Below, piece after piece: positions 21,675 through 50,562 of a stretch of DNA of 64,000 bases. Location of the stretch: the NCBI GenBank assembly GCA_003279875.1, contig QCGN01000006.1, forward strand, positions 1-64,000, read 5' to 3'. The stretch is from Prochlorococcus sp. AG-388-D03 (lineage in GTDB: Bacteria > Cyanobacteriota > Cyanobacteriia > PCC-6307 > Cyanobiaceae). The notes under the pieces were generated by a model. That model ran no database searches, had not been told where the DNA came from, and worked only from the letters and a program-made list of their open reading frames with translations. Every line of letters begins with the position of its first letter. Within the stretch, counting starts at the first letter, position 1. The position numbers and the translations under genes were made by a program.

Positions 21675-21733
21675 TATAAAATCTTATCTTGTAAAATATA
21701 AAAAATTCTTTTTAGGAGTTATTATTAAATCAT

Positions 21734-21788
21734 GGGGGAAACCCCATACTCCTCACACACTAAATCGCCCGATTTATCGGGCTTTTTT
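21734..21788 (+). ncRNA. yfr1: Yfr1 regulatory sRNA
   Basis: A 5' hairpin (GGGG/CCCC around GAAA) is followed by the unpaired ultra-conserved core ACTCCTCACAC at 21748-21758. A rho-independent terminator follows (GCCCGATTTATCGGGC plus a T-run). This is the known architecture of cyanobacterial Yfr1, which base-pairs with mRNAs such as those of outer-membrane proteins. A TATTAT element ends about 8 nt before the first G. Its position between guaB and trxA matches marine picocyanobacteria. Confidence 0.95.
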
Positions 21789-49886: not shown

Positions 49887-50280
49887 AAATCCTTCCTATC
49901 AATTTCTGTTATATAGGATAAATTAATAATTTTTTGAAGTGAATTTATACTTAAATAATTTCTATTTATCTCTTACGGTATTTTGGAATGAAGACTAAAA
50001 AATTTCTGAATTATAAAATTTGTTCTTAGTTAGATTGAAAAAAATACTTATCGACTAAAGTTTATATTGCTATGCCCTTTGTTTTCGGAATATACAAATC
50101 AGAATTATAATCTAAGTATCTAAGAGAATATTTAACAACTCCTCTAACAATTGAGAAAAAATTATTGCTTATAAAATGTAGATTACTTTTTTAAATTTTT
50201 TTTTCATTTAAAAGTAATTTTTAAAAATTTTATATTTTAATATTTTTTATTAACCAATAAATTATTAATGAATTAGGGAT
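49887..50280. other. 394-nt AT-rich intergenic region
   Basis: No ORF with a normal start is convincing. On the minus strand a 42-codon stretch ending at 50062 reads protein-like (IVRGVVKYSLRYLDYN) but has no ATG, GTG or TTG at a useful place. The right end supplies the promoter region for the sRNA at 50.32 kb. Confidence 0.5.
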
Positions 50281-50323
50281 TTATACTGTAGCTATTTTAT
50301 TTCAAATAGGTGTAAATTTATTA

Positions 50324-50392
50324 GGTCAGAAACTCCTCACACACATTTTTCTGATAAAAGAAGTACTCAAACTATGCTTTGGGTACTTTTTT
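50324..50392 (+). ncRNA. Yfr1-motif sRNA, second locus
   Basis: ACTCCTCACAC (50332-50342), the exact Yfr1 core, lies almost entirely in the loop of a hairpin whose stem is TCAGAAA/TTTCTGA. It is followed by a terminator of 11 pairs (AAGTACTCAAA / TTTGGGTACTT) and a T6 tract. The 5' end at about 50324 is an estimate. The arrangement differs from Yfr1, where the core lies between hairpins. It could mimic Yfr1 on the same targets (inference). Confidence 0.75.
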
Positions 50393-50485
50393 ATTTCTAG
50401 TATTGTGACAGTTGATATACTTACCCAAAAGGTATTTCACCCTTTAAGTATTCGTGTGATATTAGGTTTGTGTGTAGGAGATGTT

Positions 50486-50562
50486 TTATTAAATCAGTGG
50501 AAACAAGGAAACACTTGATTTTTTAAAGCTTTTAAAGACCCTTTTCTAAGGGTCTTTTTTTT
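50486..50562 (+). ncRNA. Yfr2-family-like sRNA
   Basis: Two GGAAACA boxes (50499-50505 and 50507-50513) sit in the loop of an AATCAGTG / CACTTGATT hairpin. A terminator follows, AGACCCTT-TTCT-AAGGGTCT with a T9 tract at about 50536-50563. Repeated GGAAACA in the loop of the main 5' hairpin is my recollection of the cyanobacterial Yfr2 family signature. The 5' end is uncertain. The terminator abuts the stop of the convergent 96-aa gene and may serve both. Confidence 0.75.

Follow-up and report, generated by a model that had tools for sequence, protein, structure and literature searches.

Does a second copy of the Yfr1 core, held in a hairpin of its own, belong to a new mimic of this small RNA or to a regulator that is already known? 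The question arises in a stretch of 64,000 nucleotides from Prochlorococcus sp. AG-388-D03 (contig QCGN01000006.1, hereafter the window), in which the 11-mer ACTCCTCACAC was said to occur twice and is indeed present exactly twice, at 21748 and 50332, both times on the + strand. A pattern search of both strands of the whole genome, a draft of 52 contigs that is 80% complete, found four copies, namely Yfr1 and three Yfr10-family genes, the two copies outside the window lying within Yfr10-family genes on contigs C9 and C24. Three sRNAs of Prochlorococcus MED4 have the RNA form of this core, ACUCCUCACAC, in common: Yfr1, Yfr10 and Yfr18 (Steglich et al. 2008, PMC2518516).

The element is real, yet already known, and its description dates from 2008. 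A scan of the window with all Rfam families returned four matches (Yfr10, Cyano-1, Yfr1 and one tRNA), and the element at 50325-50402 belongs to a known family because it matches the covariance model of Yfr10 (RF02362), with 76 bits on the + strand against a gathering cut-off of 43. The limits proposed in the original prediction, 50324-50392, agree with this match. We therefore read the locus, with a probability of about 0.95, as a trans-acting sRNA of the Yfr10 family that is the orthologue of MED4 Yfr18 and stands in tandem with a Yfr2-family (Yfr5-type) RNA, the antagonist model included. As such, the idea of a Yfr1 mimic was right in kind, in that this is a separate sRNA that shows the Yfr1 core in another fold and is able to share or add to the targets of Yfr1; what did not hold was its novelty. 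The features on which this reading draws are the following.

50325-50402, + strand: Yfr10-family sRNA, orthologue of MED4 Yfr18 (RF02362 model positions 1-78, full length; synteny)
50326-50354, + strand: hairpin 1 (TCAGAAA/TTTCTGA), whose loop holds the core (predicted RNA fold)
50332-50344, + strand: Yfr1-type core ACTCCTCACAC with the Prochlorococcus AC extension (motif and extension in PMC2518516)
50357-50392, + strand: rho-independent terminator hairpin and T run (RNA folding; terminator scan)
50313-50318, + strand: putative -10 promoter element TAAATT (read by eye in sequence and alignment)
21732-21785, + strand: Yfr1 (RF01116), site of the window's other core copy (58 bits, gathering cut-off 38)

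The predicted fold of 50324-50394 reaches -21.3 kcal/mol (z = -5.2), a value that none of 200 shuffles equalled. It places the 11-mer in the loop of the TCAGAAA/TTTCTGA hairpin, just as had been proposed; the stem consists of these two arms and one closing G-U pair, and the first A of the 11-mer closes it. The layout that characterizes Yfr10, with ACUCCUCACAC single-stranded in a hairpin loop and a terminator hairpin behind it, is found in this predicted fold. The terminator hairpin and its T run were confirmed, although the RNA fold gives it 15 pairs and the terminator scan, at 50357-50392, likewise counted 15, A-T pairs with the T tail among them, where the original prediction had 11. A conserved protein frame in place of the RNA had been named as a sign against the prediction; no open reading frame of at least 30 amino acids covers 50325-50392, and a protein-coding alternative was rejected on this ground. 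Phage origin was likewise rejected, with no match among 50,697 phage records.

Counted from 50325, the putative TAAATT element spans -12 to -7, and a TANNNT motif has the same spacing before MED4 Yfr10 (TAATGT), MED4 Yfr18 (TAGATT) and the other two copies of this genome. Further upstream, about 40 nt before the hairpin, a conserved block at 50273-50291 reads TTAGGGATTTATACTGTAG here and TTAGTAATTTATACTGTAG in many relatives, and a similar block precedes the other Yfr10 copies of the genome. This block could serve as a second promoter or as the site of a regulator.

Poor conservation of the core and stems in sister strains would likewise have spoken against the prediction; both proved to be conserved. 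Yfr10 matches are present in 48 of the 61 genomes of the genus and in 20 of its 21 near-complete genomes, and at 68 of 80 Prochlorococcus loci the exact 11-mer occupies the syntenic place after the same ABC-transporter permease gene. The remaining 12 loci comprise five in which the same hairpin holds a variant core, six whose sequence ends less than 1.7 kb past the start of the gene, and hence before the site, and one (L065) that is of sufficient length yet gives no match. The loci of the alignment were picked by the exact 11-mer, so that conservation of the core in it is biased, whereas the stems were not picked in this way. For the two hairpins, 92-95% of the alignment cells are paired, and four pairs have changed on both sides, three of them in the terminator hairpin. 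For hairpin 1, in which 94.6% of cells are paired among 27 distinct orthologues, the support from covariation within the genus is thin, since it contributes one of the four double changes (C-G to U-A) in a single sequence. In 56 of 58 distinct orthologues, the predicted fold leaves 10 or all 11 bases of the core unpaired.

Outside the genus, weak Yfr10 matches occur in g56, a second GTDB genus within the family. There the core is looped out by a stem of other sequence (AACAGGAC/GTTCTGTT, for instance), and the downstream element has an exact or nearly exact complement of the core, TGTGAGGAGT. The g56 loci also have an inverted repeat, ACTCCTCATAGGAGT or a near form of it, with a core-like start, 35 nt upstream of the core (L137, 105-119 on the + strand; L138, minus strand).

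The assignment to Yfr18 in particular rests on position. In MED4, one Yfr10 match falls exactly on the published coordinates of Yfr10, 346661-346738, and the third match, 972241-972321(-), overlaps published Yfr18, complement(972284..972388), within which the 11-mer at 972304 also falls. This third match is adjoined by a Cyano-1 match at 972111-972178(-), and Yfr18 was placed beside Yfr5 by the authors (PMC2518516). On the same strand and downstream of Yfr1, MED4 Yfr18 follows at a spacing of 28,467 nt and the window gene at 28,584 nt, which, with the overlap just described, identifies the window gene as the Yfr18 orthologue; in the 25 genomes where a single contig holds both genes, the two are 24.6-34.0 kb apart, mostly 27.5-28.9 kb. 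Against a simple equation of the two counts that the reported Yfr18 sizes of 29 and 76 nt (PMC2518516) do not simply fit a 78-nt hairpin-terminator RNA. The published 5' end of MED4 Yfr18, 972388, precedes the Rfam start by 67 nt, yet the -10-like TAGATT is at the distance that suits the latter.

Overlooked by the original prediction was the neighbour of the element, a Yfr2-family (Cyano-1) partner that begins 66 nt downstream and contains a near-complement of the core.

50468-50535, + strand: Cyano-1 (Yfr2-family) sRNA, equivalent of MED4 Yfr5 (RF01701, 62 bits, gathering cut-off 41)
50470-50480, + strand: GTGTGTAGGAG arm, near-complement of the core (duplex of short segments)
50534-50557, + strand: terminator of the Yfr5-type RNA (terminator scan)

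The gap between the two matches, which lie on the same strand, is 65 nt. The genome holds three Yfr10 and three Cyano-1 matches, paired every time, and across the 61 genomes of the genus a Cyano-1 gene follows 59-90 nt downstream on the same strand for 76 of 77 Yfr10 matches. An arm of the GTGTGTAGGAG type is present in 70 of 70 orthologous loci. Short segments of the core and arm form a duplex of -17.6 kcal/mol, an energy equalled or surpassed by 3 of 25,594 sampled segments of the window; the top two of these, at about -25, presumably correspond to the complements of the core at its two sites. It is only these short accessible segments, not the full-length RNAs, that stand out: the full-length Yfr18 and Yfr5 duplex computed with RNAduplex (-17.6) is no stronger than those of shuffles, 74 of 200 being as good, and full-length energies were for this reason not used as evidence of pairing. 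At locus L144 (G211) the order appears reversed, the Cyano-1 match preceding the Yfr10-like hairpin on their common strand. A half-complete genome of the genus (G031, about 0.8 Mb) has unusually many tandems: each of its six Yfr10 matches is paired with one of its six Cyano-1 matches, and two of these pairs lie within one locus (L143).

Published work on MED4 indicates what such a tandem might do. Yfr18 expression was seen there by Northern blot and 5' RACE (PMC2518516), and the tandems Yfr10/Yfr2, Yfr12/Yfr4 and Yfr18/Yfr5 were noted, with mutual pairing proposed (Steglich et al. 2008, PMC2518516). MED4 Yfr10 binds mRNAs through the core motif (Lambrecht et al. 2019, PMC6778093), as established by pull-down and primer extension, by RNase E protection and by footprints that included core mutants; binding of ppa requires the UCCU within the core, Yfr10 and Yfr1 have some targets in common and others of their own, Yfr2 binds both and blocks their binding to mRNA, and Yfr10 goes up in darkness (all PMC6778093). 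Thus, with mRNA binding by Yfr10 and its blocking by Yfr2 published, the mimic idea has already been studied. That the core mediates binding of mRNA targets and of Yfr2 is a published result for MED4 Yfr10 (PMC6778093), and it is by analogy that we infer the Yfr18 copy of AG-388-D03 to be expressed and to act like MED4 Yfr10. A short transcript of about 70-80 nt would start near 50325 and expose the core single-stranded in its hairpin loop, this loop would pair with partly complementary mRNA stretches that overlap the Yfr1 target set, and the downstream Yfr2-family RNA, through its near-complement, would act as an antagonist that titrates the loop away. The suggestion that the element adds to Yfr1 targeting was right in kind. 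It had named GUGUGAGGAGU-type sites; a search of both strands of the genome found just the four sRNA copies and no exact site of this kind elsewhere.

The alternative that survives best holds that the element is mainly transcribed together with the Yfr5-type RNA, as the 5' portion of a joint RNA in which the Yfr5 arm masks the core in cis, and that processing frees two antagonists in a fixed ratio. When this joint RNA is folded, the predicted minimum-energy structure has the arm paired to 10-12 bases of the core region in 70 of 70 distinct orthologous loci, and a 270-nt precursor of Yfr10 and Yfr2 is known from MED4 (PMC2518516). This cis pairing, however, results automatically from the complementarity and is not independent evidence; the conserved terminator at 50357-50392 should stop most transcripts, and the different responses of MED4 Yfr10 and Yfr2 under stress (PMC6778093) speak against a fixed ratio, so that we regard this alternative as unlikely. 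A related model, for which we would give rather long odds, is that the Yfr10/Yfr18-Yfr2/Yfr5 pair forms a built-in switch, in which core and antagonist would mask each other in the read-through RNA and read-through or RNase processing would set the ratio of free loop to antagonist.

That the element is a drifted duplicate of Yfr1 is very improbable: the two have the 11-mer and two further bases in common, but they differ in fold and Rfam family, no similarity between them was seen beyond the core, and the element occupies a separate conserved locus, all of which bears out the original view that it is no simple duplicate. The Yfr1 model (RF01116) has no match at 50325-50402, and its sole match in the window, at 21732-21785, is the only one in the genome. 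A chance 11-mer beside an ordinary terminator, conceivable in an AT-rich region with many T runs, is refuted by an expectation of 0.01 copies per window in dinucleotide shuffles, by the reversed 11-mer, which has just 0-1 copies per genome, and by conservation of the hairpin across the genus.

The Yfr10-family reading places the element in the published Prochlorococcus sRNA network of Yfr1, Yfr10 and Yfr2, which touches carbon and nitrogen metabolism. What is added here is modest, namely that in the sampled genomes a Yfr10-type gene is almost always directly upstream of a Yfr2-family gene. This near-constant tandem, together with a layout kept with different stems in a second GTDB genus, supports the view of a joint evolution of the two RNAs.

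Among known systems, MED4 Yfr18 is closest, with the orthologous position, the identical hairpin sequence around the core (TCAGAAACTCCTCACACACATTTTTCTGA) and a Yfr2-family gene downstream, while its terminator and linker sequences differ and its published 5' end lies farther upstream, by 67 nt. MED4 Yfr10 (RF02362; 346661-346738) likewise has the core in a hairpin loop, then a terminator and then a Yfr2-family RNA, but it lies at another locus, in genomic island 1, whereas the window element is at the Yfr18 locus. With Yfr1 (RF01116) the element has the identical 11-mer core plus AC in common; the core of Yfr1 is located between two hairpins and not in a loop, its locus is another one, and no further similarity was seen. 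The Yfr2 family (Cyano-1, RF01701), finally, is the next gene of the tandem and, with its near-complementary arm, represents the antagonist partner and not the same RNA.
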